Assembly: GCA_018396705.1 (NCBI GenBank)
Contig: JAGTQZ010000002.1
Span: 248,001 to 312,000 of the forward strand
Length of the DNA: 64,000 nt
Direction of reading: 5' to 3'
Source: Candidatus Bathyarchaeota archaeon
GTDB lineage: Archaea > Thermoproteota > Bathyarchaeia > Bathyarchaeales > Bathycorpusculaceae
Made by a program: the position numbers and the translations under genes. Position 1 is the first letter of the stretch. The number at the start of each line of letters is the position of its first letter. Of this stretch, positions 9,164 through 60,782 are shown piece after piece. The notes under the pieces were generated by a model that did not search any database, was not told the DNA's origin, and worked only from the letters and a program-made list of their open reading frames with translations.

Positions 9164-9742
9164 TTGAAATTTCTAGTAAATTATGTAATTCGATTTGCAA
9201 GGCGTAGCATACGGCTTATACGACGGTTTTGGAAAACAATACTTTTGGTTGTCTATGTTTCTCTGGCAACACTGTTATTAAACATGGGGGTTTCCATCTG
9301 GCTAAGCAGTTTTCATGGCCTGTATCTTCCAAGCGTCGGCAATATCCACGTGATAGGTGTGGAAGCCTCTGGTGGGGACATACGCACCTTGCCGAATGGA
9401 AGTCAATTTATCAACTGGGGAACAGTTTATCTTGGAGCTAGGACAGACCGTTTGTTCTATTTGAAGAGTATAAGCAATAAACCGATAATCCTTGAGCTAA
9501 CATCTTCAAATTTGACTTTCCAAAATTCAAAAGGCGACATCGTTAAGGAGCCTCTACCTGTTGAAAATCCCTTACGCTTGTCATGGAATTATACTGGTGT
9601 GCCGCTTGAACCAAACGAACGCATTTGCGTCATTTTAACTTTGGAGGTATCTTCGGATCCAAGGTTTATCGCATATATAGTGGAAAATGATGTTGAACAG
9701 TTCCATTTCATTGTAACCATAAAACCTCTGAGCCAAGCATAG
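9164..9742 (+). CDS. Membrane-anchored beta-sandwich surface protein
   Basis: A 192-residue protein from a TTG. A basic N-terminus (RFARRSIRLIRRFWK) precedes one membrane helix at about residues 24-46; the rest is predicted to be outside the cell. The core INWGTVYLG...YLK...LSWN...ILTLEVSS is shared with the 151-residue protein encoded at 14622-15077 (IDWGEVILG...YLK...LTWN...LILTVKS). Several N-x-S/T sites could be glycosylated. The two paralogues flank the archaeosortase locus. The function is unknown; a structural or binding role at the surface is inference. Confidence 0.65.
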   Translation: MKFLVNYVIRFARRSIRLIRRFWKTILLVVYVSLATLLLNMGVSIWLSSFHGLYLPSVGNIHVIGVEASGGDIRTLPNGSQFINWGTVYLGARTDRLFYLKSISNKPIILELTSSNLTFQNSKGDIVKEPLPVENPLRLSWNYTGVPLEPNERICVILTLEVSSDPRFIAYIVENDVEQFHFIVTIKPLSQA

Positions 9743-9856: not shown

Positions 9857-10549
9857 ATGCCGAACAACGTTGTATCGGTGATTATTCCAGCATATAATGA
9901 AGAGAAAACACTAGGCAGCGTAATCGAAGAAACAGCCCAAATAATGGAAAGTTTAGGCCTTCCATACGAGATAATCGTTGTAGACGACGGTTCTGAAGAC
10001 CGTACGCGGGAAGTGGCGAGCAAATACAAGGTTACAGTGCTGTCAAACGGAGGAAACATGGGAAAAGGCTACGCCCTAAGAAAGGGTTTTCAACACGCCA
10101 ACGGCAACATAATTGTAACTATAGACGCAGACGGCTCCCACAAGCCTAAGGAAATCCCAGATCTGATTAACACATTAGTGGACGGCGCAGATGTAGTGGC
10201 TGGTTCAAGGTTTTTAGGAAAAAACAAAAACCACACCTCAAAACTCCACGTGTTCGGCAACCATCTCATAAACATGACAATTATGGTTTTAACGGGAAAA
10301 AAGATCACAGACAGTCAAACTGGGCTAAGAGCCTTAAAAAGAGAATTCCTTAAAAGCATAAGTTTGGAGTCTAACGGCTACGAGATTGAAACTGAAATAA
10401 CCATGAAAGGATTAAAAAATGGCTTTGTTTTCAAAGAGATACCTATAAGCTGTGAAAAAAGAAAAAATGGGGTGTCAAGGCTAAGCGCGCTACGACAAGG
10501 CCCAAAAATCTTAAAAACAATTTTAAAACATGCGGTTGCGCCGAAATAG
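9857..10549 (+). CDS. Family 2 glycosyltransferase (dolichyl-phosphate sugar synthase type)
   Basis: A 230-residue GT-A enzyme: VSVIIPAYNEEKTLG at the start, IIVVDDGSEDRT, and the metal-binding region VTIDADGSHKP. There is no C-terminal membrane helix, as in soluble DPM1-like enzymes that load a sugar from a nucleotide donor on to dolichyl phosphate. It is downstream of the flippase and upstream of the sortase substrate, consistent with lipid-linked glycan assembly for surface proteins. The sugar is not predictable. Confidence 0.86.
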   Translation: MPNNVVSVIIPAYNEEKTLGSVIEETAQIMESLGLPYEIIVVDDGSEDRTREVASKYKVTVLSNGGNMGKGYALRKGFQHANGNIIVTIDADGSHKPKEIPDLINTLVDGADVVAGSRFLGKNKNHTSKLHVFGNHLINMTIMVLTGKKITDSQTGLRALKREFLKSISLESNGYEIETEITMKGLKNGFVFKEIPISCEKRKNGVSRLSALRQGPKILKTILKHAVAPK

Positions 10550-10633: not shown

Positions 10634-11332
10634 TTGGATTTAAAGAAAATGTTGCTAGCGCTGATGATAATAACATTTGTTGCCAGTTTCCTTTACATGC
10701 CAGCTGTCAAAGCTGAAGAAGTGGTGATAAATAACTATGACAATGTAACGTCGGAGAAGGTAATTAGCGAAATCAACGACATTGTTAAAAAGGGTGTTAC
10801 GGAGGGGGAGATAATATACATTGAAGACTCTGCGTTTTCTAGTTCTCTAACATCATCCCTAAAGAATTATGGTCCTAGGATGTTATTATGTCGTTATTGG
10901 TACAGTTTAACAGTGTCTCCAAAGGCTGCCTATGTTGGGCAGTCCGTAACGGCTAATGCAACTACAAATAACATGTACGTTACAAATGTCACATTCATAT
11001 GGATAAAATTGTTCGACGGGATCAAAAAGACGGAAAGAGTCCAGGCCTCTTTGAAAAATGGTCTTAAGGAGGCTATCAGCACATACGAACTTACCAGTAA
11101 CAGCGATGTAGGCTCGTGGTTGGTGTTCGCCTTGTTCGAGTTTGAATATGTCAATTCATATGGGTGTAAATGTATAAAGTTGTTTGCCCTTAGGTGGACA
11201 TGTTTCTATGTTAATCCCAGAATCCCACAGCAAATACCAGACTATCCGGTTGTTGGCACTGCAGGTGCTATGACATCCATGATTATAGGGTTAGGTTTAT
11301 TCATAAATAAGAGAAAACGAAAACCCTTTTAG
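10634..11332 (+). CDS. Secreted protein with C-terminal sorting signal
   Basis: A 232-residue protein. Residues 1-25 form a signal peptide (LKKMLLALMIITF, cleavage near VKA-EE). The middle is a soluble region with several N-x-S/T sites and few cysteines. The C-terminus is a three-part sorting signal: the motif IPDYPVVG at about 201-208, a hydrophobic helix (TAGAMTSMIIGLGLFI), and a basic end (NKRKRK). This resembles the PEF/VPEFP-type CTERM signals recognised by archaeosortases, and an archaeosortase gene starts 52 bp downstream. A TATA element (aatttataaa) lies about 45 bp upstream, and a gggagaggg ribosome site precedes the start. Confidence 0.72.
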   Translation: MDLKKMLLALMIITFVASFLYMPAVKAEEVVINNYDNVTSEKVISEINDIVKKGVTEGEIIYIEDSAFSSSLTSSLKNYGPRMLLCRYWYSLTVSPKAAYVGQSVTANATTNNMYVTNVTFIWIKLFDGIKKTERVQASLKNGLKEAISTYELTSNSDVGSWLVFALFEFEYVNSYGCKCIKLFALRWTCFYVNPRIPQQIPDYPVVGTAGAMTSMIIGLGLFINKRKRKPF

Positions 11333-11383: not shown

Positions 11384-13441
11384 GTGAAGAGAGTTTCAGA
11401 TAAAATCAGGTGGATAATTGGTGCATTTGAGGGCTATTGGCAGCACGTTTTAGCCCTATTTCTTTTTTTATTGGTAATCTGGGCAGTCTACTGGCGTGAC
11501 TTGGAAATATTGTTGAATGAAGCCCTCCACGCGGAAGCTCTTTCACACGTTCTTCTAATACCAGCCTTCGTGGGCGTTCTTCTCTATTTGAAGAGGGATG
11601 CGTTTAAGGCTTCGCTTGCTTTGGAGTCTCTACGAAAGAAATCTGGAGGCATGCCTTTTGATGAACTCGTTGGATTAAGCCTATGCCTCATAGCTTTTCT
11701 AGTTTATTGGTATGGTTCATACACATTTTATCCACTGGAATATCATGTGCTCTCTTTACCCGTATTTGTAGTGGGTGCCATGCTAATTCTCTTTAATCTA
11801 AAAGCCTTGAAAGTGCTAATCATCCCCGTAGTGCTTCTTGTTTTTATGGTCCCGATGCCCAACGAGATAGCATACACTTTAGGCGGAAACCTAGCAAACA
11901 TTAACACTCAAGCTTCCTATACATTACTCAAGGGGTTAGGAGTCCCGGTAACATTAAACACGACGTATGGCTCTCCAACCATAATGCTGACGAAAAACCA
12001 GGAGCAGCCAATTCCGTTCACTGTGGACATCCCATGCTCGGGTATTTACATGTTAACCGCCTTCTTCATGTTCGCTGTCTTTCTAATGGCGATTGTACAA
12101 GCTCCACTTCTCAAAAAAGCTTTAATCTTCGCGGTTGGCTTCGCTGTTTTTGAAGCTCTAAACATTGTCCGCATAACGTCCATAGTTTCTGCGGCTTACC
12201 TCTTCGGAGAAGAGGTTGCAATGCTTATTTTTCACTCATTAGCTGGTTTAATGCTCACATTCGTTGGAATATTCATCACACTTATCGTGTCTGAAAAGCT
12301 ATTGGCAATAAAAGTTATTACCAGCCGCGCTGACACGCCTTTATGCCCAGAGTGTAACAGGTTTCGGGAAAAATTCCAGAACTTTTGCTTAAACTGTGGA
12401 AGGTTCTTTAACCCATTTAGAAGGAAACCTTCCCGAGTTTTTTGGGCAAAAATAACGCTGCTACTAATCGGCTGTTGCCTAGTATCTCTAAGCGTCAGCG
12501 CGCCGGTTTTCGCCATCTCAAAGGAAACAATAGAGGTAACCTCATGGGAAAAAACAACAGAAATTCTGCCGCGGGTCCCAGATTACAACCTCACTTTTCT
12601 ATATCGGGATACTGGTTATGAACGAATAGCAAAACAGGACGCGTCGCTGGTTTACGCTTATTTTCCAGCAAACCTTTCAAGGCCGGTTACATATGCTATT
12701 ATAAGCGTGGCAACCAGCATCTCGAACCTTCATAACTGGGAAGTTTGCCTCATATCATGGCAGACAGCTCAGGGGCGTTACCCGCTAGTTGAAGTTCTAG
12801 CCTCTAACGATATACAATTGCTTGAGGGCGGCCAGTTAATTGCAAAGTACCTAGTTTTCCGAAATTCCGAGGAAAACTATACGCAATATACACTTTACTG
12901 GTATGAAAGGGCCACATTCAAAATGGGCGCCACAGTGCAACAGCGATATGTTAGAATAAGCCTTCTAATATGGGCATGGGGAGTTTCCAGCCCTCAACAG
13001 TATGAAAACCAGCTTCTGGAACTCGGAGATGCGGTAGCCCGCCACTGGGAACCAATAAAAACTCAAGCATTACTTTCTTTGGGAATACCTGCACAGCAAA
13101 CTCTCCTTGCCTTTTCAATAGCCCTCATAATAGTCACAAAAGCAGCAGAGTCCACCCGCAAGTGGCATAAAAAAATGAATAACATGAAAATATTCAACAA
13201 TCTAGCTTCACCCACAGACAAGCTTGTACTTCAAACAATTACCGAGTTAAGCAAAGCTAAAGGAAACGCCACGACAGCTGAAATAAATAATGCAATTAAA
13301 AACAGAACTGGGAAAACAATGAAACTTAGAAGGCTCATGGAAAGGTTAAACCGTCTACAGGAATATGGCTTCATAAAAGTGGACCTAACGTTAACAAATA
13401 ATACTCCAAAACTTGTTTGGAAAAGTTTAGTAAACCTCTAG
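11384..13441 (+). CDS. Archaeosortase with fused zinc ribbon, EpsI-like and winged-helix domains
   Basis: A 685-residue protein from a GTG. Residues 20-310 are a multi-pass archaeosortase/exosortase with C218 (IPCSGIY), R263 (NIVRITS) and H284 (FHSLAG), the expected Cys-Arg-His set. Residues 321-338 form a CPEC...CLNC zinc ribbon. A membrane helix at about 356-378 leads to an extracellular region of about 190 residues that resembles the EpsI-type (DUF3485) partner of exosortases. Another helix follows, and the last 75 residues look like a winged helix (SKAKGNATTAEINNAIKN, RLNRLQEYGFIKV). Archaeosortases process CTERM proteins, and the preceding gene encodes a candidate substrate. The cytoplasmic ribbon and DNA-binding-like end are unusual. 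Confidence 0.8.
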   Translation: MKRVSDKIRWIIGAFEGYWQHVLALFLFLLVIWAVYWRDLEILLNEALHAEALSHVLLIPAFVGVLLYLKRDAFKASLALESLRKKSGGMPFDELVGLSLCLIAFLVYWYGSYTFYPLEYHVLSLPVFVVGAMLILFNLKALKVLIIPVVLLVFMVPMPNEIAYTLGGNLANINTQASYTLLKGLGVPVTLNTTYGSPTIMLTKNQEQPIPFTVDIPCSGIYMLTAFFMFAVFLMAIVQAPLLKKALIFAVGFAVFEALNIVRITSIVSAAYLFGEEVAMLIFHSLAGLMLTFVGIFITLIVSEKLLAIKVITSRADTPLCPECNRFREKFQNFCLNCGRFFNPFRRKPSRVFWAKITLLLIGCCLVSLSVSAPVFAISKETIEVTSWEKTTEILPRVPDYNLTFLYRDTGYERIAKQDASLVYAYFPANLSRPVTYAIISVATSISNLHNWEVCLISWQTAQGRYPLVEVLASNDIQLLEGGQLIAKYLVFRNSEENYTQYTLYWYERATFKMGATVQQRYVRISLLIWAWGVSSPQQYENQLLELGDAVARHWEPIKTQALLSLGIPAQQTLLAFSIALIIVTKAAESTRKWHKKMNNMKIFNNLASPTDKLVLQTITELSKAKGNATTAEINNAIKNRTGKTMKLRRLMERLNRLQEYGFIKVDLTLTNNTPKLVWKSLVNL

Positions 13442-13481: not shown

Positions 13482-14375
13482 ATGTGCATAGAAACGAACA
13501 AAAAGGTCGAAGAAAAAACACCAAACGAACATTCGGCGGAGACCGTCAAAAAGCTTCAAGAGGAAGTTGAAAATCTGAAACTTGAGCTAAAAAAGGCTAA
13601 GAGCATACCTTCCGGGAAAATAGGCTTAGCCTTAGCAATCCCCGGCGTCTTATGCCTCGTCGGCGCAATTTTAAAGGACTCGAACGTTTTAGCCTTCATA
13701 GGTTTAGGTTTAACATTCTGGGGTGCTCTCTTCTTTTTCGTGAGACCTCTGCGGTATGTGCAAAGTAGTCTAATAGACTCAACGGCGTTACCTGCATACA
13801 AAACTATTGACAGAATAGTTGCAGACTTGAAATATAAAGGCAAAAGCTATTATATACCGCCATATCCAAAGGAAGTTTACCTTCCAGAACACTTAAAAGG
13901 CCTTAAAGACCATGTGGTTTTTATTTCTTCAGACGCTGGTGGCGTGCCTTCCATAGAAGAACTTGCAAAAAGCAAATTTTTGCTCGCCAACCCGAACGGT
14001 GTTTGTGTTGCTCCACCAGGGTTGGGAATTCTTGAACAGATTGAAAAAGAGTTAAGGAAGGACACAGCGAAACTTCAGTTAGCTGAACTATGCGAAACCA
14101 TCCCCATAATAATTGTTGAAAACCTACAGTTGGCAAAAGAAGCGGAAATGAAAATTGAAGACAACAGCGTTAATCTAAAAATATCTGACTCAGTGTACAA
14201 GAGTCTATATATTGATGAAAACTTGAAAAGTGTTTATTTACTAGGATGCCCTATTGCAAGCGCTGTAGCATGTGCGTTAGCCAAGGCTTCTGGAAAAGCA
14301 GTTACAATACAGAAGGTTAACGCATCTATTGATGGCCAGACAGTTGAAATTCGATACCGCATGGTGGAAAGCTAG
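13482..14375 (+). CDS. Conserved membrane protein with coiled coil
   Basis: A 297-residue protein, not assigned to a named family. It has a predicted coiled coil at about residues 9-38 (VKKLQEEVENLKLELKKA), two adjacent membrane helices at about 50-90, and a 200-residue cytoplasmic domain rich in hydrophobic strands (VFISSDAGGVPSIEEL, GVCVAPPGLGILEQIEKEL). It follows the sortase by 40 bp and precedes a small membrane protein by 2 bp, so it is probably part of the surface locus. No catalytic motif is visible. Confidence 0.6.
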   Translation: MCIETNKKVEEKTPNEHSAETVKKLQEEVENLKLELKKAKSIPSGKIGLALAIPGVLCLVGAILKDSNVLAFIGLGLTFWGALFFFVRPLRYVQSSLIDSTALPAYKTIDRIVADLKYKGKSYYIPPYPKEVYLPEHLKGLKDHVVFISSDAGGVPSIEELAKSKFLLANPNGVCVAPPGLGILEQIEKELRKDTAKLQLAELCETIPIIIVENLQLAKEAEMKIEDNSVNLKISDSVYKSLYIDENLKSVYLLGCPIASAVACALAKASGKAVTIQKVNASIDGQTVEIRYRMVES

Positions 14376-14377
14376 AC

Positions 14378-14584
14378 ATGAATTTTCCGATGTCCATGTC
14401 GGACATAAGCCTTTGGCTGGCGGTCATGGCTATAATTCTGCTCATAACATCTGAGATTATATCTTCAGCTTCTGGATACACTGGAAACATTATTATTGAA
14501 AAGAGGCGTCTTCGCCTCGTCGCCCTTGCTTTAGGAATCGGGTTTATGGCTACTGTGATTATGCGGATTTTCCAGCCTTTTTAG
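14378..14584 (+). CDS. Small two-helix membrane protein
   Basis: A 68-residue protein starting 2 bp after the previous stop. Two hydrophobic helices (LWLAVMAIILLITSEII and LVALALGIGFMATVIM) flank a short basic loop (IIEKRRLR). Close spacing suggests that it is made with, and perhaps binds, the membrane protein encoded just upstream. Similar small partners accompany many membrane complexes; the function is unknown. Confidence 0.55.
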   Translation: MNFPMSMSDISLWLAVMAIILLITSEIISSASGYTGNIIIEKRRLRLVALALGIGFMATVIMRIFQPF

Positions 14585-14621: not shown

Positions 14622-15077
14622 TTATTGAGTTTCAGTTGCTATTATGGATATATCAAATGAGAATGAGCCTCCTTGGGCGTTTGACTTCACTGTTAGGATT
14701 AAGTTTGCACTGATTGATTCGCCGACGTTTAAAATAGCGTTTTCCCGGTTCCAAGTTAAAGTTAAGTAATTACTTGCCGAAGATGGAGTCCAGTTTCCAT
14801 ATATCATGGAAAGCGTTACCTTTACATTACCAAGGTTTTTCAGGTATATAGTCCGTGTATAATTTTGACCTAGGATAACTTCACCCCAATCAATGCTAGA
14901 TAGGGAAACTGTACACGATGAGTCGCTGTATACGCCGAGACCCAGAGTGGCCCTCACGTTTCCCGAACTTTGAATCGTTTGGATAGCTGGAAGCAAACCG
15001 GCAACTAAGGCTGTTGTGACCATGGCTGCTAGCGCAAGGGCGAAGGCTATGGCCAAATTTGATTTTGGGCTTTCCAT
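14622..15077 (-). CDS. Membrane-anchored beta-sandwich protein, paralogue of 9164-9742
   Basis: A 151-residue protein with an N-terminal membrane helix (LAIAFALALAAMVTTALVA) and a beta-rich exterior. The pattern SIDWGEVILGQNYTRTIYLK, then LTLTWN and LILTVKS aligns with the larger protein at 9164-9742. It has several N-x-S/T sites. It is transcribed on the minus strand, convergent with the small membrane gene. The resemblance to pilin-like surface subunits is limited to the single N-terminal helix. Confidence 0.62.
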   Translation of the reverse strand: MESPKSNLAIAFALALAAMVTTALVAGLLPAIQTIQSSGNVRATLGLGVYSDSSCTVSLSSIDWGEVILGQNYTRTIYLKNLGNVKVTLSMIYGNWTPSSASNYLTLTWNRENAILNVGESISANLILTVKSNAQGGSFSFDISIIATETQ

Positions 15078-47608: not shown

Positions 47609-47941
47609 GTTAGTGCCCGACATCTCGGGCGATTGGGGGCCGCGGGCTGAGCTGGTCGGCCGAAGCCTTCCAGCGTACACCCCGGCTCCATCAAACCCGT
47701 CTTTTACGGGAGCCCTCGTCCCACGGGCTCGGGCTGTTGCCAGCCCAGCCGTATGTGGGAGTGGCTGCCTATTTTCGGGAGGGGCTTCGGGCTTAGATGC
47801 TTTCAGCCCTTATCCCCGGCGGCGTGGCTGCCCGGCGTCTGCCCTGTCGGACAACCGGTAAACTAGAGGCCACAGCGTCCCGTTCCTCTCGTACTAGGGA
47901 CCCTTTCCCCTCAGGCAGCCAGCACCCCCAGCAGATAAAGT

Positions 47942-47989
<48 letters not shown>

Positions 47990-48629
47990 AGGCGAGCAGC
48001 CTCACCCTTGGCCCCTTATGCAGGGCCAGGATGGGAAGAGCCGACATCGAGGTACCAAGCCGCGGGGTCGATGGGGACTCTCGCCCGCGACGAGCCTGTT
48101 ATCCCCGGGGTAACTTTTCTGACACATCCGGCCCCCACCAAGGGGGACACGGATGATCGCTAGGCCCGGCTTTCGCCCCTGGATCCCTCACTGTGGAGGA
48201 TCCAGTCAGGCCGGCTTTTGCCCTTGCACTCTACGACGGGTTTCTGTCCCGTCTGAGCCGACCTTTGGGCGCCCTTGATATCTTTTCAAGGGCGTGCCGC
48301 CCCAGCCAAACTGCCCACCTGCCGTTGTTCCAGCGCCCGAAGGCGCCGGTGAGAAACACGGCCGCGAAAGGACGGTGTTCCATTGGCGCCTCCCCCGGCT
48401 CCCGGAGAAGCCGGGATCGACGGCTCCCGTCTACGCTCTGCATCCGCAGCCATGTTCCAGCGGCAGGCTGCAGTAAAGCTCCACGGGGTCTTCTTTTCCC
48501 GCTGGGGGTTCGTGGACTGTTCGTCCACGTTACGTGGGTTCACCGGGTGCCAGGCGGGGACAGCGGGGCCCTCGTTGATCCATTCATGCACGTCGGAACT
48601 TACCCGACAAGGCATTTGGCTACCTTGAG

Positions 48630-49390
48630 CAACCCCAAACTGGGGTTGGACCATATCTTCGCCCTCAAGGTCATCTTCAACATCCCTCTACGGCGCTCGG
48701 CGTATGGTCTCTGAGGCGTCCACCCGCCTCTCCAACTCAAAGAGAATATCGCTGAGCTTGTATTTTCTATCGCTGGAGGCTTCATAGGCTTTTTCCAGAA
48801 GTCTCTTGAACCCTTCGAGGCTTCTATGTTCCCCTTTCTCTAACCCTTCAACTATTTCGGCGAAGTATTGGAATTCCCGCCATTTAATTATTGGCCTATG
48901 CTTTTTGAAGAATGGAAATATATTCTCAGCGAGGTTTCTCCGCGCGTCCACGACATATTGCAATGTTGATTCTTCCTGTCCAGGCTTTGGGATTATGCGG
49001 CCACAGTTGAAAACTCGCTTAAGGATTTCAAGAATCACTGCATGGTCTTTACTTTGCGTGACGTGAAACACTGGATCAATGACCCATCCGAATTTTGTGT
49101 TGTCCTGTTTTTTTATTGATATTGAGAAACAACCTTCGCCATCCACGAGTCCAACTATGTAGTAGTGGAGGTACTTTCTCCTTCTTGGCAGCATCTTTAG
49201 GTCTATTAGGTCTTTGAACTCGTCGAGCATATTGTTCACCATGGTTAGTTTGCTGGCTGTTGTTTTTAAGCGTTTAAAGGCGGGTGTTCCCTGCGGGTCA
49301 GAGGCACATGAACGGCCGTTTTTCCCTGCTCGGGAGGCCGTCCGCTTCCCCTTCCCCGCATATAGCCGAGTTTAACGACTCCCTTTTGTT
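48630..49390 (-). other. Archaeal intron in 23S rRNA
   Basis: The rRNA reads ...GTAACTCTGACTCT, is interrupted, and resumes as CTCAAGGTAGCCAAATGCC. Removing about 761 nt restores the universal sequence around E. coli position 1923-1927 (base of helix 71). Ends are defined within a base or two because of the CTC repeat. The intron flanks form hairpins (AACCCC/GGGGTT at about 48631-48647), consistent with bulge-helix-bulge splicing. It carries a homing endonuclease gene. Confidence 0.88.
48688..49242 (-). CDS. LAGLIDADG homing endonuclease in the 23S intron
   Basis: A 184-residue protein with one LAGLIDADG motif, IVGLVDGEGCFSI, near residue 30, so it would work as a homodimer. The rest follows the family: GWVIDPVFHVTQSKDHAVLEI-like strands and the second helix VDARRNLAENIFPFFKKH. 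It would cut intronless 23S alleles at the intron insertion site and spread the intron. The gene is in the same direction as the rRNA, in the middle of the intron; the frame is intact. Confidence 0.92.
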   Translation of the reverse strand: MVNNMLDEFKDLIDLKMLPRRRKYLHYYIVGLVDGEGCFSISIKKQDNTKFGWVIDPVFHVTQSKDHAVILEILKRVFNCGRIIPKPGQEESTLQYVVDARRNLAENIFPFFKKHRPIIKWREFQYFAEIVEGLEKGEHRSLEGFKRLLEKAYEASSDRKYKLSDILFELERRVDASETIRRAP

Positions 49391-50492
49391 GAGAGTCAGA
49401 GTTACTCCCGGCGTTTGCAGGCCCTTAGCCCGGTTGAACCCGGGTTTCAGGTACCTGTACTGGCCAGGATTCAGGAGCCGTTCACACCCTTTCGGGCTTG
49501 CGGCTCCCTATGTTTTTATTAAACAGTCGGGACCCCCTTGCCACTGCGACCTGCTGTCCCAGCTGGAGGCCAAGACAGCAGGCACCCCTTCTACCGAAAG
49601 TACGGGGCTATTTTGCCGAGTTCCCTCGCCCTGGCTTATCCCCGACACGCCTTAGGTTTCTCGCCTAGGGGCACCTGTGTCGGTTCTAGGTACGGGCACG
49701 GAGGATCCTTCCCAACGCCCTTTTCACTGGCTCCAGGGATCAGCTGAACCGCCCTAAACGGGCGGCTATTCCCGCTTTCACCTGGTTCTCGCCATTACGG
49801 CACTCCCCAGGCTTATACGGTTAAGCAAGGCGACAGCCTTGCTCAGCCTACCCCGAAGCGTCAGGCGTTGGGCCTGCGTCGCCGCGATCGTACCTCCGTG
49901 GCGCCGGAATTTTAACCGGCTTCCCTTTCGGCGTGGTCGGTTAAGCCACGCCTTAGGACCGGCTTACCCCCGGCTGACGACCGTTGCCGGGGAACCCTGG
50001 CCCCTTCGGCGGAGGGGATTCTCACCCCTCTTTGCTGTTACTACCACCGGGATCTGCACTCCCGGCCGGTCCACTGGACCTCACGGCCCAGCTTCTACCC
50101 AGCCGGGACGCCCTCCTACCGACGCAGCCATGCGGCTGCGCCCCGAGGTATCGGCGGCTGGCTTAGTCCCGTCCATTTTCGGGGCCGTCAGCCTCGGCGG
50201 GTGAGCTGTTACGCACTCTTTAAAGGATGGCTGCTTCTAAGCCTACCTCCCCGCTGTCTAAGGCTGACGACGCCCTTCGGTTTGACGTTTAGCCAGCACT
50301 TTGGGGCCTTAACCTCGGTCTGGGTTGTCCCCCTCTCGGTCCGGGAGCTTACCCCCCGTAACCCGTCTCCCGGGGTCTACGGCGCCGATGGATTCGGAGT
50401 TTGAAAGGAAGGTGGAGCCTTTCGGCCCCTTGGCCTTCCAATCAGTGCTCTACCCCACCGGCCGCCTCGCCCGGGGCTGGGCTGCGACCCAC

Positions 50493-50527
<35 letters not shown>

Positions 50528-50890
50528 TCTTTAGCCCCTAGCCCCAGGTCTGGGGAACGAATTGCACGTCAGCACCCTTTCGGGCCTCCACCAGGCTTTC
50601 GCCTGGCTTCGCCCTGCCCAGGGCTAGATCGCCCGGTTTCTAGCTTCACGGCCGTGACTCCGAGCCCTTTCAGACTCCGCGCCTCGCTAGGCCTTGCCTA
50701 GCTGCGCGCATGTCGGTTTCCCTACGCCTACGGGCTTGAGGCCCTTAAGCTCGCCACAGCCGTGAACTCCCCGGCCCGTGTTTCTAGACGGAACGTGCAA
50801 CCCTGGTCCCCCTCCCTCGTACTCCCGCCTCGCGACGGTTTCCTTTGGGAGGGATCTACCCTTCCGGGCTGCACACGTCTATAACCGTCT

Positions 50891-50938
<48 letters not shown>

Positions 50939-51453
50939 GTCACCGTACTAGTGCGCTATCGGTCTTGAGACGTATTTAGTCTTGGAAGTTGGTGACTCCC
51001 AACTTCCCGCACCCAAACCAGGGTACGGTACTCTGGGACTCCGGCACAACTCCTTCCGGCTTACGCCTACGGGGCTTTCACCCTCTATGGCAGGCCGTTC
51101 CAGGCCACTTCGGCTTAACCGGTGAGGAGGAGCCGGGCCCATAACCCTACATCCCCCATGAGTTGTCCCCATGAGGTTCAGTTTGGACTCTTCCCCTTTC
51201 GCTCGCTGCTACTCAGGGAATCCCGTTTGGTTTCTTTTCCTCCCCCTACTAAGATGCTTCCGTTCGGGGGGTTCCCGCTCCCTGCCGGGAGCACCGCAGA
51301 CCCCCGAAGGAGTCTGCGGTAGGAGGTCCCATTCGGGAATCCCCGGTTCTAAAGCTGCATACGCTTACCCGGGGCTCTATCGCGGCTGGCCGCGCCCTTC
51401 GTCGGCGCTCAAGCCGAGCCATCCCCCAGACGGCGTGGCATGTCGGGCTTTTA

Positions 51454-53153: not shown

Positions 53154-54341
53154 ATGAAGGACATACACGCAAGTGCCAGAAAGCTTGAGGCTGCTAGGCG
53201 GAGACTTTCCAGCCTTAAATATGGAGATCTTCTGCTAAAGTTTCTAGACCATCTTCAGGCCCTAGGACTTTCAACATCGAGGGTGCTGAAGTATGCCACA
53301 TGCCTATGCACCATATTCAAAAACGTTCCATTCAACCCTGCAGAGGCAGAAAAGTCTGAAGTGGAGAAGGTTGTGGCTTGGATAAACTCTAGGCCCTACA
53401 GGTCTTGGACCAAACATGGGTTGAAGCTTACAGTTAAGAAGCTTCTTCAATATGCAAAGTGTGGCAGCTGCCATAAGAAGGCACCCGTACCGCCTGAAGC
53501 CGCATGGATTGATGTGAAAGCCGACGAAAGGGATTGCAGGGTGACCCCTGAATCACTTTTAACAGTTGAGGATGTTAAGGCAATCATTCGGAACGCTGAA
53601 AACGAGAGAGACAAAGCCCTAGCGTCCGTGCTTTATGAAGCCGCCCTAAGGCCTGGGGAGCTGCTGACGATGAAGGTTGGAAGCGTGGAGTTCAGGGACA
53701 ATTACTGTATTATTTCGGTTAACGGCAAAACAGGCCTAAAAAGAATCCCACTTGTGGCTTCATATAAGTATTTGTTAGACTGGCTGGAAAAACACCCCAG
53801 AAAGGCTGATCCAGAAGCCCCCTTATGGGCATCCCTAAGCAACAACGCCAAAGGATCCAGCATTAGCTACGCCTACCTCAGGAAACTATTGAAAAAGCTG
53901 GCCCAAAAAGCTGGTATAAAAAGGGATGTTTGGCCCTACCTTTTCAGGCACTCCAGCCTAACAAACATGGCCAAAAACCTCACAGAATCAAAACTTGCAT
54001 TGTTCGCCGGCTGGACCCAAGGATCAAAAATGACCAAGAGATACGTGCACTTCTCGGCAAGAGACCTTGAAGAAACAGTTTTAGAAATTCACGGGCTAAA
54101 GCCCTCAAGCAAATCAGATGGATTCCTTAAGGTAACGGAATGCCCAAGATGCGGAAGAAGAAGCGCACCTGACGCTGTCAGGTGCGGCTTCTGCGGCTAT
54201 GTAATCGACAGAAAGTTAGCCATGGAGGTTGAGGAAAAAAGGGTGGAGAGGCTGGAGGAGGTTGCTAGGCGCTTGGAGATGCTTGAGCAAACCGTTTACT
54301 CCTTATTGAGTGGTAAGTGTGGAGATCTTGGACAACAATAG
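53154..54341 (+). CDS. Tyrosine recombinase (integrase) with zinc-ribbon and coiled-coil tail
   Basis: A 395-residue protein. The N-terminal SAM-like core-binding domain is followed by the catalytic domain: R in EAALRPGELLTMK, a K in the beta hairpin, YLFRHSSLTNMA (usual HxxR has Y in place of the first His), and the nucleophile Tyr in TKRYVHFS. A CPRCGRRSAPDAVRCGFCGY zinc ribbon and a coiled coil (EEKRVERLEEVARRLEMLEQ) are added at the end. Its position after tRNA-Thr and before a GC-richer region marks it as the integrase of a mobile element. Confidence 0.88.
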   Translation: MKDIHASARKLEAARRRLSSLKYGDLLLKFLDHLQALGLSTSRVLKYATCLCTIFKNVPFNPAEAEKSEVEKVVAWINSRPYRSWTKHGLKLTVKKLLQYAKCGSCHKKAPVPPEAAWIDVKADERDCRVTPESLLTVEDVKAIIRNAENERDKALASVLYEAALRPGELLTMKVGSVEFRDNYCIISVNGKTGLKRIPLVASYKYLLDWLEKHPRKADPEAPLWASLSNNAKGSSISYAYLRKLLKKLAQKAGIKRDVWPYLFRHSSLTNMAKNLTESKLALFAGWTQGSKMTKRYVHFSARDLEETVLEIHGLKPSSKSDGFLKVTECPRCGRRSAPDAVRCGFCGYVIDRKLAMEVEEKRVERLEEVARRLEMLEQTVYSLLSGKCGDLGQQ

Positions 54342-54417
54342 CCTTGATGGCATTGACTTCACGCAGCAACCTCTCGAGATCAGTCCTTCTAACGAGGATA
54401 TATTCCCCATCCGCCAC
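54265..54417 (-). CDS. Possible small protein antisense to integrase end
   Basis: A 50-residue frame from a GTG at 54417: VADGEYILVRRTDLERLLRE, then NAIKAIVVQDLHTYHS. The first 25 residues look like short regulatory proteins that carry (E/Y)xLVxRxDLExLLxE. A TATA-like tttttaag is about 30 bp upstream of the start. The last 77 bp overlap the integrase gene in antisense, which lowers confidence. The remaining stretch to 54729 has no frame but a perfect palindrome at 54596-54612. Confidence 0.35.
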   Translation of the reverse strand: MADGEYILVRRTDLERLLREVNAIKAIVVQDLHTYHSIRSKRFAQASPSA

Positions 54418-54595
54418 ATCTGACACCCAAAACTACAGGCAACCAAGACTTAAAAATCGCAAGCATGGAACCGCTACCAATAAGTGACGGCCCAATTTTG
54501 ATGCATTAAAAATTCAGACAGCCACCCTTCATGAGGACCGTCGGAATCCGAGATCCAACTTGGGTCACTCCAACAGCACAAAGTAGTTAACAAGC

Positions 54596-54612
54596 AATTG
54601 TTGCCAACAATT
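54596..54612. promoter_or_regulatory. 17-bp palindrome near element start
   Basis: AATTGTTG-C-CAACAATT is a perfect 8-1-8 inverted repeat in the 390-bp gap between the integrase and the first GC-rich operon. It is about 130 bp before the next start codon, too far for a core promoter. It could be an operator or part of a replication or recombination site. Confidence 0.35.
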
Positions 54613-54744
54613 TGATGTACGATCCCCTGACAACCTGTGCCCACCCTAGCCAAAAAGCGTGTTCCCCAGGCCTTTAAAGGCAAAAACGTGTTGTCTTCTG
54701 AGTCGCAGATGCGACTTGAACATTAGGGGTTGGAGGTGGTGGAT

Positions 54745-55866
54745 ATGTTGCCTCAGAATGTTGAGGTTAAGGGTAAAAGAGGAAGGGTGCTGACTCAGGG
54801 GTTCTTGACGGACGTTGACGTCCCATCCGAGGAGAGGCTTACGGTGCAAGTGGACGTTTCTGGGATGAGTGACGTCGAACATATGAATTGGGTTAGGTCC
54901 ATACAGGATCTCCTAAGGTTTATCGACGTTGAATACCATGTTGCTGTAACCGGCAAATCAAGCGAAAAAACGAACCTGAGAAGGAGGAGTGTAAGAGTCC
55001 GATACGTGAAGGATTCCTCGGGTAAACAGATCAAAATTGCAGCGTTCCATCCATACCCAAGCATGCTTGTTAACCGGCTGAAGAGCATAAGGCACAAGGT
55101 GTACGACGTCTTGAACGAGTTCTGCTTGGTTCTCCAAGAGGAACGGGTTGGAAGGATGAAGCGGAAGCTGTACTTTCTCCCAGCAGGCTTGGCGCCTGAG
55201 CTGATGTTGAGGATCGAGGAGCTGAACTATCAATTAGAGGATTTGAAGGGGAAAATTTCGGAGTTCGAGGAGAGCGAAAACTTTAAGGCGATTATGAAAC
55301 GTGTGGCGGAAACAGGCGTTGAATTGAACTTCAGAGCGAACCTTCCTCCAATAAGAGTTTCGCCGGTTCCGCTGAGCCTTTCAAAACAGTTCTTCATGCA
55401 ATACGTTGAGGAGGAGAAGAAGAAGGCGTTCCTCGAAATCGACGAGGCAAAACGCAGGGGCCTCATTGCGCTAGAGAGGGAAATGCAGCGTAAACGTGAG
55501 GAGATGTTGGAGGCGTTGAAGAGGAACCTTCAAGACAGGTTTGCAACGATTATTGCTCTTGCCGAAGAAGCCGTAAAGGCAGCCGCAAAAGGCGTGAACG
55601 TGAACAGCAGAGCTGCGGCAAAGAGGCTTGAACGGTTGTCGCGTTTGATAGAGAATACTGGTGTGGAGTTTGATGAGAAGCCATTCAAGGCATTAAGCAA
55701 CGTCCTCTCAGCCATCAATTCAAAGGATGCTGAAGCAATCAAAGCTGCTGTTGGAGAGTTGGCGGAAAGCCTAGGGGTAGTGCCTTCCGGCGACCCTGTG
55801 AGGGATATTGAGATGGCCTCGAGAACGGTCAGAGGGAAATCAGTGTTGCTCTTCACCATAGACTAA
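54745..55866 (+). CDS. DUF3150-like coiled-coil partner of a CobS-like ATPase
   Basis: A 373-residue protein from the ATG at 54745 (a TTG at 54730 is possible). No named family is certain. Its layout resembles DUF3150: an N-terminal beta-rich part (LTVQVDVSGMSDVEHM), a middle helix NRLKSIRHKVYDVLNEFCLVL, and long coiled coils (ELNYQLEDLKGKISEFEE, REMQRKREEMLEALKRNLQ). DUF3150 proteins sit beside CobS-like AAA proteins, as here (26 bp to the ATPase gene). I infer that the two make a complex; the third, VWA-containing partner is missing. Confidence 0.5.
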   Translation: MLPQNVEVKGKRGRVLTQGFLTDVDVPSEERLTVQVDVSGMSDVEHMNWVRSIQDLLRFIDVEYHVAVTGKSSEKTNLRRRSVRVRYVKDSSGKQIKIAAFHPYPSMLVNRLKSIRHKVYDVLNEFCLVLQEERVGRMKRKLYFLPAGLAPELMLRIEELNYQLEDLKGKISEFEESENFKAIMKRVAETGVELNFRANLPPIRVSPVPLSLSKQFFMQYVEEEKKKAFLEIDEAKRRGLIALEREMQRKREEMLEALKRNLQDRFATIIALAEEAVKAAAKGVNVNSRAAAKRLERLSRLIENTGVEFDEKPFKALSNVLSAINSKDAEAIKAAVGELAESLGVVPSGDPVRDIEMASRTVRGKSVLLFTID

Positions 55867-55891
55867 GGGGAACAGCCATGGAGGGCTGGGT

Positions 55892-57283
55892 GTGAGTTTT
55901 GAAGACGTTTCATCCGCCCTAAACAAGCTGGTTAAGACCGTCGCTGAGGTTTACAGGGGCTACCATCAGTACAATATGATCGAAACGGTTTTCAGCGGGC
56001 TGTTGATGGCCGAGCCGGTTCTGCTAATAGGAAGCCATGGAACCTTCAAAACATCGCTTGCAAGCTTCGTCGGCAACCTTTTCGACAAACCGGTTGTCGC
56101 CCTCGAGGAAACGGTGTCTGCCAGAAGCGAACTTGAGAAGTTCTTTGAAAAACTCGGAGACGATTTGAAGCTTGACCCCGAACGTCTGATGCGGAACCTC
56201 GTCGACGGCGTGAACGTCGACTATGAGCATGTAGGAGCCAAACTGCGGGTTAGAGTTGAAGTTGATGCCGTGAAACATCTGGGTGCGGATAAACTCGGCG
56301 AGGCGAAAAGGAGGCCGATAAGTGTTTTCAGCATACAGGTTAACGATCAGATGGACCCCGAGGATGTTCTCGGATACGGCATCGATCATCCCGCAATCCT
56401 GGGCATGAAGCCGCCCCACGCCGTGAAATCAGGAAGGCTTGCAGGCGCAGACTTGGTCTGCCTCGATGAGCTATTCAACGCGCCGAGGCTCCTGTCGAAG
56501 CTGCATCACGCCTTGAACGAGAAGGTTGTTGACACGACTGTTGGTCCTGTGGAGGTGAAACCCCTCACATGGGTTCTATGCACGAACCCACTCAACGAGT
56601 TCTACCAGACGAACCTCAGGCTGATCAACGTGGCGACGACAGATCGTTATGCGTTGAGTGCAAGAAGCCTCCCGCCAAGCGCCCAAGAGATCTTGGTTAT
56701 GGCCGAGAAATGGAAAATGCTTAAGCTCAAGAAAAGGGCGCCGGTTGAGTTGATCTACGAGGCGAGGAGGCTGATGGATGAAGTTGCAATCCCAGAGGAG
56801 TTTGTGGTTTTCTGCCTAGGGCTTGTCAGCCACCTTTCAAGGTGCTACTTCTCAACCGCTAAAGGCAGGAGGGCTGAGGAAAGCAAGGATCCATTTGAAA
56901 CCGAAAAGGACTGCAGTTTATGCATATATGGCAAGGACTACCCGTGTGGGATAGCCAACGTCGGCAAGGTCAGGACGATGATAAGGCTTCAGCAGGCAAT
57001 GAAGGCTCATGCACTGCTCAACGTTAGAAAGGAGGCGAATGAAGATGACCTTTCCTTTGCGTTGCTCTCGGTTCTGCCCCATCGCCTTTCATGGAACAAC
57101 CAAGAGTTCCTCGCTGAACATGGAAGCATCTTCACGGCGACGAAGTCGCTTGTTGAGAAGTACGCGCAACTTTTTGAGGCAAACCATGCAAGGCTTAGGG
57201 AGGTCGAAGACCTCATAAAGAAGCCGGATGTCTCAATGGCGTTGGAGCTGAAGGCGAAATATGCGGATGCACCTATAATTTGA
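55892..57283 (+). CDS. MoxR/CobS-like AAA+ ATPase with Cys cluster
   Basis: A 463-residue AAA+ protein from a GTG. Walker A GSHGTFKTS (47-55), Walker B LVCLDE (188-193), sensor 1 CTNP (230-233). Between Walker A and B it has a long insertion, with NDQMDPEDVLGYGID before Walker B. C318, C341, C344 and C352 form a CxN-CxxC-C cluster that might hold zinc or iron-sulfur. MoxR/CobS proteins remodel partners, usually with a VWA protein; only a DUF3150-like gene and a 49-residue fragment flank it here. Confidence 0.8.
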   Translation: MSFEDVSSALNKLVKTVAEVYRGYHQYNMIETVFSGLLMAEPVLLIGSHGTFKTSLASFVGNLFDKPVVALEETVSARSELEKFFEKLGDDLKLDPERLMRNLVDGVNVDYEHVGAKLRVRVEVDAVKHLGADKLGEAKRRPISVFSIQVNDQMDPEDVLGYGIDHPAILGMKPPHAVKSGRLAGADLVCLDELFNAPRLLSKLHHALNEKVVDTTVGPVEVKPLTWVLCTNPLNEFYQTNLRLINVATTDRYALSARSLPPSAQEILVMAEKWKMLKLKKRAPVELIYEARRLMDEVAIPEEFVVFCLGLVSHLSRCYFSTAKGRRAEESKDPFETEKDCSLCIYGKDYPCGIANVGKVRTMIRLQQAMKAHALLNVRKEANEDDLSFALLSVLPHRLSWNNQEFLAEHGSIFTATKSLVEKYAQLFEANHARLREVEDLIKKPDVSMALELKAKYADAPII

Positions 57284-57286
57284 TCC

Positions 57287-57436
57287 ATGCTGGACGAAGT
57301 TGTCGACATGATGAAGGAGTCAGCTAAGAAGAGGGGCGATGCGGCAACCCTAGAAGCGCTTGAACCGCGACTCAACATAACCGGAGCCGACGAAAAAAGG
57401 GCTGGAGCTTCGAGAAGTGGAAGGGCTCCGAGTTAG
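57287..57436 (+). CDS. Small frame after the ATPase, possibly a truncated partner
   Basis: A 49-residue frame from an ATG 3 bp after the ATPase stop: MLDEVVDMMKESAKKRGDAA, then LEALEPRLNITGADEKRA and a Ser/Arg/Gly end. The first 40 residues are helical and well formed, but the end looks like read-through into non-coding sequence. The usual place of a VWA (CobT-like) gene is here, so it may be the remains of one; the sequence does not prove it. Confidence 0.4.
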   Translation: MLDEVVDMMKESAKKRGDAATLEALEPRLNITGADEKRAGASRSGRAPS

Positions 57437-57453
57437 GTCAAGTGAAGCTGAGA

Positions 57454-57969
57454 TTATGCGGCGAAGACCGCGACTGTGGCCATGGCTGAAACGGCCGAGG
57501 CGTTTTCGAGGGCCTTCAAGGGGTTGGCTGGACGTAGACCGGCGACAGCCCTTTCGAGGCTGCTTATGAATGGAGGCCTTGCATTAGCTTCTATCACGTG
57601 TACGGGTATTGGAATTCTCCTGATTTCAGCCTCGTCTGAAGCGTGGTTTAGGCCGCCGATGCATGCGTCCTGAATGTAGTGGAGCGCGTATCCAAGCTGC
57701 CATGCAGCCTCAAACTGCTTGCCGTCGAGCCATAGGCGCCTTGCATGCCACAGGCGCCTCATGATCCTGTTTCGGTTCACGCCGTGGTGGCGGACGCGGT
57801 TAACGACGAGGTAGACGTTGCCTCTGCGGCTAACCTTCGCCTGCAGCTCCGCTTCGGGGCTTCTGTCTGGCTCCTCGACGCCGTCAAGCATGGCCCAGAG
57901 GAGCTCCTTTCTGACGCTCAAGGCGCGTGCAACGGCCCTCGTTATGGCCTTATGCGTTGAAATCTTCAG
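57454..57969 (-). CDS. Zinc-dependent phospholipase C-like protein
   Basis: About 171 residues. The C-terminal part has WQLGYALHYIQDACIGGLNHA, an H-x3-D site like the zinc-binding core of phospholipase C/S1-P1 nuclease-fold proteins. The motif KISTHKAITRAVARAL, with a conserved His, lies upstream of the first TTG (57921), and a CTG at 57967-57969 with GGTGA 6 nt before it is the best start. Function is unknown; it may be a lipid or nucleotide hydrolase. Last gene of a minus-strand operon. Confidence 0.6.
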   Translation of the reverse strand: MKISTHKAITRAVARALSVRKELLWAMLDGVEEPDRSPEAELQAKVSRRGNVYLVVNRVRHHGVNRNRIMRRLWHARRLWLDGKQFEAAWQLGYALHYIQDACIGGLNHASDEAEIRRIPIPVHVIEANARPPFISSLERAVAGLRPANPLKALENASAVSAMATVAVFAA

Positions 57970-57982
57970 GGCTGGTCACCTG

Positions 57983-58366
57983 CTATTCCACTAGGCACCT
58001 TACACTCATGTAGAGGTCTCTGGCCTCCTCGGCCTGCCTCACCATGTCGCTTAGGAAGCCGTCGATTAGGGCGGCTGAAACGATGTCTGACCTGTAGGTT
58101 GCGGCTATCAGCAGGGTTCTGGTTTTGGAGTCGAAGGCGTAGACCTCGTTGTATTTGGCGACAACCTTAACCTCCAGCCCGCGTTTTCCAAGCGCCTTTT
58201 CCGCGGCGAAGGAGGCTGCAAGCTGAAGGAACTCCTCAATGTTCATGATGCATCTGCCCATGAACTTCACGCCGCCCATGACCGTCCAGTCGCCCAGCAT
58301 GGACCTGATTTCCCCGTCGCTGAACCAACGCTTTAGCCACAGCGCAAACTCCTCGACAAGGGCCAT
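57983..58366 (-). CDS. Hypothetical cytosolic protein
   Basis: A 127-residue protein from the ATG at 58366, not recognised. The first part is helical (LVEEFALWLKRWFSDGEIRSML), followed by strands (KFMGRCIMNIEEFLQLAASF; VKVVAKYNEVYAFDSKTRTLLIAA). There is no membrane segment. Its start lies 14 bp after the stop of the membrane-protein gene, and 13 bp separate its end from the phospholipase-like start, so the three are one transcript. Confidence 0.55.
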   Translation of the reverse strand: MALVEEFALWLKRWFSDGEIRSMLGDWTVMGGVKFMGRCIMNIEEFLQLAASFAAEKALGKRGLEVKVVAKYNEVYAFDSKTRTLLIAATYRSDIVSAALIDGFLSDMVRQAEEARDLYMSVRCLVE

Positions 58367-58379
58367 CAGCCCGCCCCCT

Positions 58380-59342
58380 CTAGCATACATAGTCGTCCAT
58401 CGGCGTGCGCTTCGGCGGAGTTTTTTCCATCGGCGCTTTTTCCGTTGGAGCGGTCTCCCTTGTTTGTTCCGTCGGTTGGCTTTTGCGCTCCATCTGCTGC
58501 GTTTTTCGTTGGCTTTTTGGCCGGTTTACACGTACCAGGGTTTCCATTTCCTTCAGGAACCTGTCGATGGCTTCGGCTATTATGAAGGCTCTGCCCCAGA
58601 CGTCGTGTGTTACGCAGGAGTCCAAGTCCTTGAGCAGGAGGTTCAGATCGCCTCCCCCCTCAAGGTAGGCTAGGTAGTCCTCAAGGGTTTCAGCGTGTGG
58701 GATAAGCGGTTCGAACAGCGTCCCGCGCAGGTCGGTTCTCTTCATCAGCCTCCTAGCGTGGAGCTTGGCAAGCGTGAACCTGAAGGCTAGGTCTCCAAGG
58801 TGGGCCGACGCGTATAGCGTGGCAAGCGTCGCCGCAATCGCCAGCACCAGCCTCGTGGCCTGGTCGCCGACCGGGATCCAGCGGTAGGGATAGGCTATGA
58901 AGCCGAGCCACGACGCAAACATCAGCGTTGGAAACCTGATGAGATCTATTCGTCCCAGGAAAAGCGAGGCCGCGTATCTTACGCTGAGGGCCATGAACGT
59001 GAAGAGGAGGGCTGCTCCGAAGACGTCCCAGGCCTTGTGCTTCATCGAGCGATACCGTGGAATGTGGATCCATCCCCTCTTCGCCATCCATAACAGCGGA
59101 GTTTTCACCTTCCCGTTGAGCACTTTTTTCCTCACGATGTCGCCGGCTTCCTCGGCTTCGTGACTGAAAAGCGCAGATGCGAACGTCGCCAGCATCTGCA
59201 TTGCAAACGCCCAAGCTATGAGCGTCGGCTCACGCAGGTCGAGGACGCTGAAGAAGAAGTTCTTGTCAATCGAGTAGAGCATGATTGTTGGAACAAGCTG
59301 GAAGATGATTGTGAACAGCGCGTAGAGGGTTAACGGCTCCAC
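58380..59342 (-). CDS. Multi-pass membrane protein with charged C-terminal tail
   Basis: A 320-residue protein from a GTG. Helices at about 5-25, 40-60, 110-130, 140-155 and 165-185 are separated by a basic cytoplasmic loop (KTPLLWMAKRGWIHIPRYR). A soluble helical domain (HAETLEDYLAYLEGGGDLNLLLKDLD) is followed by a low-complexity tail of Pro/Thr/Lys/Glu repeats with TEKAPMEKTPPKRTP. No family was recognised. It sits between two soluble unknowns in the operon. Confidence 0.6.
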   Translation of the reverse strand: MEPLTLYALFTIIFQLVPTIMLYSIDKNFFFSVLDLREPTLIAWAFAMQMLATFASALFSHEAEEAGDIVRKKVLNGKVKTPLLWMAKRGWIHIPRYRSMKHKAWDVFGAALLFTFMALSVRYAASLFLGRIDLIRFPTLMFASWLGFIAYPYRWIPVGDQATRLVLAIAATLATLYASAHLGDLAFRFTLAKLHARRLMKRTDLRGTLFEPLIPHAETLEDYLAYLEGGGDLNLLLKDLDSCVTHDVWGRAFIIAEAIDRFLKEMETLVRVNRPKSQRKTQQMERKSQPTEQTRETAPTEKAPMEKTPPKRTPMDDYVC

Positions 59343-59354
59343 GACACAACCCTC

Positions 59355-59783
59355 CTAGCCGTAAATTGTTCCGAAGCTGATGTCGCGGAGCTGCTTTCTG
59401 AAGTCGCGAACTGTTTCGGGGTCCCTCAGCCAAATCGCGTATTTCTTGGCTCCTTCGCAGATCTTCTCAAGCTTCCTGTCCAGGAGCCTCAGCACCCTGT
59501 CGGCGTTTGGGTCTTTTCCCACTTCAACTGACCATATTCCCGAAACCAGCTTCTCCGCCAGGCCGCTTGGAATCGCCAGATAGTCGTATGTCTTCCCGTT
59601 CAGGCTCCACTTGTTGAACCTGCTTGCGCCTAGAAAGACGGCGACCAGCCCCTTCACGTTGGCCCTTTTCCGGGCGGCAAACCCGTCGTTGCTGCTGAAG
59701 ACCTGGAAGGCTTCAGGCTCCTCGCAGAACGCCCTTTTCAGGCGCTCCTCGGGGGAGCTCCACAGCCTCTCCGTGCTCGTCAA
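59355..59783 (-). CDS. Hypothetical protein overlapping a DUF7662-like gene
   Basis: About 142 residues. The start is uncertain: a TTG at 59783 gives MTSTERLWSSPEERLK and overlaps the upstream gene by 71 bp, and a CTG at 59741 is possible. The core reads GLVAVFLGASRFNKWSLNGKTYDYLAI, then DRVLRLLDRKLEKICEGAKKYAIWLRD. No domain was recognised. It is next in the operon after the nuclease-like gene. Confidence 0.5.
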   Translation of the reverse strand: MTSTERLWSSPEERLKRAFCEEPEAFQVFSSNDGFAARKRANVKGLVAVFLGASRFNKWSLNGKTYDYLAIPSGLAEKLVSGIWSVEVGKDPNADRVLRLLDRKLEKICEGAKKYAIWLRDPETVRDFRKQLRDISFGTIYG

Positions 59784-60369: not shown

Positions 60370-60426
60370 CGCTATACCTTCCTTAACAGCGCAGGTCTAC
60401 CCGAGATAATAAGACGGGTTTCACGT

Positions 60427-60437
60427 ATATAAACCTT
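60427..60437 (-). promoter_or_regulatory. TATA/BRE promoter of the minus-strand operon
   Basis: Reading the minus strand, cgaaaggtttatatacg gives BRE-like purines and a TATA box about 60 bp before the TTG at 60369. An imperfect palindrome at 60447-60460 lies just upstream of it, the place for an activator or repressor. Confidence 0.5.
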
Positions 60438-60446
60438 TCGAAAAGT

Positions 60447-60460
60447 AAGCTGACTTACCC
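60447..60460. promoter_or_regulatory. Operator-like palindrome, copy 1
   Basis: GTAAGCTGACTTAC, arms GTAAG/CTTAC. Almost the same sequence recurs exactly 70 bp away (60517-60530). It is directly upstream of the operon TATA box and near a small winged-helix gene, so it is probably the binding site of that regulator. Confidence 0.55.
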
Positions 60461-60516
60461 GCCCGTACACCCCCCTACCCCTCGCCATCTCTCTTTTTTC
60501 AACCCAACAGCGAGGG

Positions 60517-60530
60517 GTAAGCTAGCTTAT
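60517..60530. promoter_or_regulatory. Operator-like palindrome, copy 2
   Basis: GTAAGCTAGCTTAT contains the perfect palindrome TAAGCTAGCTTA. It matches copy 1 at 11 of 14 positions and lies 48 bp beyond the end of the winged-helix gene. Two sites 70 bp apart (about seven helical turns) suit looping or cooperative binding. Confidence 0.55.
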
Positions 60531-60577
60531 TGATAGAGGGGCCTAACAAAGAAAGAAAGAACGCAATATAGAGGCTA

Positions 60578-60781: not shown

Positions 60782-60782
60782 A

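Follow-up and report, generated by a model that had tools for sequence, protein, structure and literature searches.

A predicted Ig-like surface protein of a Bathyarchaeota archaeon carries a probable C-terminal sorting tag for the exosortase-family enzyme encoded beside it

The product of the gene at positions 10634 to 11332 of the DNA analyzed here (the window: 64,000 nucleotides, G000:C2:248001-312000, from a Candidatus Bathyarchaeota genome, G000, of 1.71 Mb in nine contigs, 97% complete) is best explained, judging by its structural model, as a surface protein that is secreted and has a single Ig/MG2-like domain. With considerable confidence, we propose that this protein bears a CTERM tag and is sorted by the adjoining exosortase-family enzyme, in a few-to-one system with an exchangeable cargo slot. 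The cargo gene has the following features:

10634..11332, forward strand: cargo (substrate) gene, an ORF of 232 aa with a TTG start
10634..10717, forward strand: probable signal peptide at the N-terminus (MDLKKMLLALMIITFVASFLYMPAVKA/E), recognized by eye in the translation; helix 3-20 in the AF2 model
10901..11215, forward strand: Ig/alpha2-macroglobulin-MG2-like beta-sandwich, residues 90-194 (AF2 model, VIA-align, homologous family in relatives)
11234..11257, forward strand: candidate recognition motif IPDYPVVG, residues 201-208 (translation, family alignment)
11258..11329, forward strand: hydrophobic helix and basic end NKRKRKPF (translation, AF2 model, tail profile)

The TTG start is preceded by AGGGAGAGGG, and the N-terminus of the protein is plausibly a signal peptide. 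A scan against Pfam and NCBIfam matched no family to the protein. Its AF2 model (mean pLDDT 64, from a 6-sequence alignment) comprises the beta-sandwich at residues 90-194, a loop bearing the motif and a helix at 207-228, with pLDDT blocks mostly of 77-87 at residues 90-170 and lower beyond. In VIA-align comparisons, the sandwich reaches Z 12.4 over 96-97 residues to domains of complement C5 and PECAM-1; the similarity to 8ayh_C (Z 12.4, rmsd 2.1, 96 aligned residues) is a match at the level of the fold only. The protein belongs, as a divergent member, to a family of Ig/MG2-like proteins repeatedly encoded next to the sortase: an ectodomain HMM built without it recognizes it at 1.3e-4 (at Z 20000), and in several relatives members of this ectodomain family lie adjacent to the sortase or close to it.

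The C-terminal end of the protein (...QQIPDYPVVGTAGAMTSMIIGLGLFINKRKRKPF) has the layout of a CTERM signal, with a motif, a hydrophobic helix and a basic cluster at the extreme C-terminus. The sequence-only reading that preceded this analysis had pointed to such a tripartite signal, and profile searches bear this out. An HMM built from relatives only, with the rows of the window and of its own genome omitted, matches the tail at E 5.6e-10. None of the other window ORFs (404 ORFs) scored better than E 5.1 against this HMM, and none of 5000 shuffled tails of the same composition matched the tail profile at E <= 1e-3. When the profile was stripped of each genome's own rows, 18 of the 20 rows were recovered at E <= 1e-3; L075 +5 reached only 0.0012, and L047 -2 was missed. 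The consensus of the signal is [IV]P[DEQ]xP(x)xG, with the first proline (Pro4) and Gly10 present in 20/20 and Pro7 in 19/20 of the aligned tails. In Candidatus Bathyarchaeota, this tail is common to several ectodomain families without significant BLASTP similarity to one another, which argues that the tail itself is kept, rather than reflecting common descent of whole proteins.

None of the sorting-signal models in NCBIfam and Pfam matched the tail above its cut-off. The NCBIfam scan of this tail at E <= 10 returned only LPXTG (15.1 bits, cut-off 15.9) and PEP_CTERM (12.5 bits, cut-off 16), and when all 20 tails were scanned against NCBIfam at the same threshold, no PGF, PEF or PEFG model was among the 12 families listed. 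The sequence comparisons support the idea, already raised when IPDYP was set apart from PGF and PEF, that the tail represents a new recognition class, a kind of CTERM sorting signal not covered by any curated model. The literal IPDYP is not conserved in orthologues that adjoin a sortase, where the motif reads IPDLP, VPEVP, IPEVP, VPEIP or IPYTP; both prolines and the glycine are conserved and the remainder is variable. Pro202, Pro205 and Gly208 are invariant in 9/9 aligned members of the Ig-like family.

A profile made from alignment A4 of the Ig-like family matched 23 genomes at E <= 1e-4, of which 15 were kept for counting (ectodomain spanned, E <= 5.2e-15) and 8 were dropped as matching mainly the tail or a part. 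A long sortase is present in 11 of these 15 genomes, one of which, G067, is counted although the search there (L177 6303-6743) turned up no more than a C-terminal fragment of the sortase, next to an intact cargo gene. Among the genomes without a long sortase, G049 and G006 have intact cargo genes with tails of the form VPEIQLAGTAG..., the cargo tail of G053 is degenerate, and the cargo orthologue of G040 (L178 6441-7037) is split by an in-frame TAA, which may reflect decay after loss of the sortase or a base error.

The sortase gene follows the cargo gene on the same strand, with 51 intergenic bases before its ORF start at 11384. Its features are:

11384..13441, forward strand: exosortase/archaeosortase, 685 aa, with a C-terminal extension (PF09721, TIGR04178)
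12035..12235, forward strand: putative catalytic Cys218, Arg263 and His284, in the membrane part, invariant in 25/25 aligned sequences
12344..12397, forward strand: zinc-ribbon-like CxxC...CxxC, residues 321-338, between membrane helices, all four Cys invariant in 25/25
13175..13426, forward strand: C-terminal winged-helix domain, residues ~598-681 (AF2 model and structure comparison)

The enzyme clears the cut-offs of PF09721 (9e-31, 107.6 bits against 25.7) and TIGR04178 (4.5e-13, 49.3 bits against 23). All named NCBIfam subtypes listed for it stay below their cut-offs (the best being XrtW, 79.3 bits against 425), and TIGR04297 is absent among the NCBIfam matches listed. In named records, its relatives come almost exclusively from Candidatus Bathyarchaeota MAGs (28 loci). 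The catalytic part is followed by the CxxC...CxxC cluster, a helix, an alpha/beta domain (377-555), a further helix and the winged helix; the cysteine cluster and the winged helix are kept in Bathyarchaeota orthologues, and from the order of the helices we infer that both are cytosolic. A zinc-ribbon match above the Pfam cut-off was not found in the enzyme. The extension gave no match to the EpsI model at E <= 1 in the Pfam and NCBIfam scans, the alpha/beta domain being modelled at 377-555, and a PDB sequence search with the sortase alignment gave one match, at E 0.55, which we took as chance. The VIA-align comparisons fall mostly on the winged helix and the alpha/beta domain, so that the lack of exosortase structures among the listed matches is uninformative on the membrane part; they relate the winged helix to those of Orc1/Cdc6, RosR and BlaI/MecI at Z ~10. 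The genome also encodes a second, shorter exosortase-family protein (G000:C4:289440, L002), which is thaumarchaeosortase-like (TIGR04297 at 1.4e-13, below cut-off); short archaeosortase forms are common in the order.

We compared 38 sortase loci including that of the window, several of them cut by contig ends, using longest-ORF gene calls rather than annotations. Three further genes of the window recur at many of these loci:

9857..10549, forward strand: family 2 glycosyltransferase, AglJ-like (PF00535, 1.8e-36), upstream edge of the cargo slot; homologue at 19/38 sortase loci
13482..14375, forward strand: conserved downstream membrane protein, 297 aa; homologue at 27/38 sortase loci, usually 26-93 bases downstream of the sortase gene
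14378..14584, forward strand: conserved small membrane protein, 68 aa; homologue at 25/38 sortase loci

A flippase homologue is present at 16/38 loci. On either side of the locus lies a protein that has a membrane helix at its N-terminus and may belong to the sortase system, one at 9164-9742 (forward strand; homologues at 15/38 sortase loci) and one at 14622-15077 (reverse strand; a weak match to choice-of-anchor D at 1.6e-4, below cut-off). In closer relatives, the stretch from the glycosyltransferase to the sortase is filled by cargo genes that differ by genome, among them members of the L047/L050 family, of the L049 family or of the Ig-like family seen in the window, and two singletons in L042. 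Slot cargo of differing families has the same kind of C-terminal tail. By sequence comparison, the slot between glycosyltransferase and sortase appears to be one whose cargo can be exchanged.

The occurrence of the tail follows that of the long sortase. Across 151 genomes of the order, 38 have a long sortase and 39 the tail; 29 have both, 9 the sortase only, 10 the tail only and 103 neither, which makes 19/151 mismatching genomes. Sorted by enzyme content, the tail is present in 29/38 genomes with a long sortase, in 10/72 with only a shorter PF09721 protein, and in 0/41 with no such enzyme. With the 13 genomes that contributed profile rows omitted, the proportions are 16/25 with and 10/113 without a long sortase (Fisher 1.5e-8, where the Fisher values for tail and sortase ignore the relatedness of genomes). 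A sample of 300 genomes from the phylum gave the tail in 12/16 genomes with and 2/284 without a long sortase. Three other genomes of the same genus have neither. Twelve genomes combine a tail match with a sortase of 43% identity or more, and in 12/12 of them one or more tail genes lie no further than 5 kb from the sortase, as do 17/27 matches; since the profile rows stem mostly from sortase neighbours, these adjacency counts are partly built in. A strict tail regex matched 22 loci among the 38 sortase neighbourhoods, including L060 by way of a chance IPDNNG, and we prefer the counts from the profile.

Tail conservation, co-distribution, adjacency and intact catalytic residues all speak for the pairing of tag and enzyme. 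The proposal of the sequence-only reading that the protein is a partner of the adjoining sortase holds up, given the conserved neighbourhood and the co-distribution, and on sequence grounds the adjoining membrane enzyme very probably recognizes the tail of the 10634-11332 protein. Against the pairing count the 9 of 38 sortase genomes without a detected tail, the 10 genomes that have a tail but lack a long sortase, and the divergence of the 10634-11332 protein from the rest of its family.

The same reading had gone further and suggested that the sortase has one dedicated target, which did not survive the search of the whole genome. The pattern (I/V)P(D/E)(Y/F)P gives 10 DNA matches in G000 and 8 on a reversed control, mostly off-frame or internal, and we rejected it as a class motif because it is both too narrow and too noisy. 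Two of its matches are C-terminal with a helix and a basic end. One is the gene at 10634-11332, and the other, in an IPEFP protein (G000:C1:6844, L032; at least 528 aa, ending IPEFPMALYLPIFIALSFIAITFSKNRK), was rejected as a class member, as the tail profile does not match its different proline-containing tail, which possibly represents another sorting class. The broader pattern [IV]P[DEQH]xP[LIVFM]G has three DNA matches in G000, of which one is a real C-terminal tail, and a variant one residue longer finds only 10634-11332. It is the broader motif that reveals the true second member, G000:C4:411602 (210 aa, IPDVPFGTITAMLSMLFAFGAYITLRRR, tail IPDVPFGTITAMLSMLFAFGAYITLRRRNILARF). A tail profile containing both members finds exactly two genes in G000, with the next match at E 0.67. 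The second tail matches the full profile at E 1.2e-15, and at 3.1e-13 with both own-genome rows omitted; with tails removed, the protein is homologous to a sortase-adjoining protein of genome G104 (BLASTP 1.8e-50). In relatives, tail-profile matches number up to 13 (G099) and 10 (G074). These sequence data suggest a few-to-one system here, with two tagged proteins, and a many-to-one system elsewhere, with one to thirteen in relatives.

It is consequently very unlikely that the 10634-11332 protein is the only target of the sortase in the cell. The distance of 51 bases on one strand and the presence, in several relatives, of members of this ectodomain family at or close to the sortase would fit such an arrangement, and sorting enzymes placed next to a single target are known (PMC3237569). 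However, a dedicated pair as defined there has a single target in the genome, and the second tail gene in G000, the up to 13 tail genes in relatives, and the change of slot cargo between genomes already contradict it at the level of sequence. We consider it just as improbable that the shorter archaeosortase processes the tail and that the adjoining long sortase serves other proteins. The short enzyme is encoded in G000 and in 10/10 genomes that have the tail and no long sortase, but the tail is found in only 10/72 short-only genomes, against 29/38 with the long enzyme, and tail genes cluster at the long sortase in the long-sortase loci examined. We infer that it is the long sortase that processes the tail, while in the 10 tail-only genomes the shorter archaeosortase could process the tag. 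A shade less probable still is the absence of any sorting, with the protein held as an ordinary type I membrane protein by its C-terminal helix. The helix and basic end do resemble a stop-transfer anchor, and this tail passes the cut-off of no curated CTERM model; yet the two prolines and the glycine ahead of the helix are kept over dissimilar ectodomains, the tail tracks the sortase across genomes, and tails shuffled at constant composition fail to match the profile.

Together, our data suggest a model in which the enzyme at 11384-13441 would recognize [IV]P[DEQ]xP(x)xG at the outer face of the membrane, cut the cargo at the motif by means of its Cys-Arg-His site, and pass it to an anchor, for which a membrane lipid or glycolipid is the likeliest candidate, as with ArtA. 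Recognition, cleavage, transfer and anchor are proposed by analogy with ArtA (PMC7157517) and EpsH (PMC1569441).

The system is related to several known ones without coinciding with any of them. It resembles archaeosortase A/PGF-CTERM in having a motif, a helix and a basic end, paired with a multi-pass enzyme, and differs from PGF-CTERM in its motif and in its few targets, most of which, in close relatives, are encoded at the sortase locus. Unlike ArtA, the enzyme is of the EpsH-like kind (PF09721) and has a long extension at its C-terminus, and lipid attachment is putative here; for ArtA of Haloferax volcanii, cleavage and C-terminal lipid attachment are described (PMC7157517). With EpsH/PEP-CTERM, where exosortase-type genes lie near glycan genes and some EpsH proteins have a C-terminal extension (PMC1569441), it shares a PF09721 enzyme, nearby glycan genes and a proline-acid motif before the helix. 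It is, however, archaeal, its motif has the further proline spacing and glycine, its extension contains the four-Cys cluster and winged helix, and the enzyme scores under the cut-offs of all named exosortases. Where a sorting enzyme has few targets, it is often encoded beside them (PMC3237569, PMC8416519), and the proximity of target and enzyme is as in dedicated pairs of rhombosortase and GlyGly-CTERM when targets are few (PMC3237569); protease family and motif are unrelated to these, and the adjacency here exists despite two or more targets. Thaumarchaeosortase is a distant relative from the same superfamily, and the second sortase of G000 resembles TIGR04297. Thaumarchaeosortase (TIGR04297) pairs with PEFG-CTERM. 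By contrast, TIGR04297 is not among the matches listed for the window sortase, nor does a PEFG model appear among those listed for the tails. In the available portions of the literature on sortases, archaeosortases and exosortases in Bathyarchaeota, including PMC5244752, we found no description of this system.

Elsewhere in the window, an archaeal 23S rRNA gene at 47613-51450 (reverse strand) spans 3838 bases, against a model of 2987 positions, and has a LAGLIDADG endonuclease ORF (48688-49242) inside it; the gene likely holds one or more rRNA introns. Downstream of the rRNA, a possible integrated element (53154-62824) encodes an integrase (53154-54341), a MoxR-like AAA protein (55892-57283) and a helicase of the XPB type (61472-62824).

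The fusion to a winged helix, a DNA-binding-like domain, raises the question whether sorting is linked to gene control. With its conserved four-Cys cluster and winged helix placed in the cytosol, the sortase might also be a membrane-embedded regulator, sensing the supply of cargo or anchor outside and controlling transcription of the exchangeable cargo slot inside, so that one chain would combine a sortase with a one-component regulator, for which BlaR1-type signalling offers a comparison; we regard this as a speculative and rather unlikely reading. The sorting system itself provides a testable rule for surface-sorted proteins in Bathyarchaeota, a large and mostly uncultured archaeal lineage, and a tail motif from which annotators can build a CTERM model. 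The pairings of one sortase with one to thirteen tails form a natural series for transitions between dedicated and general sorting.
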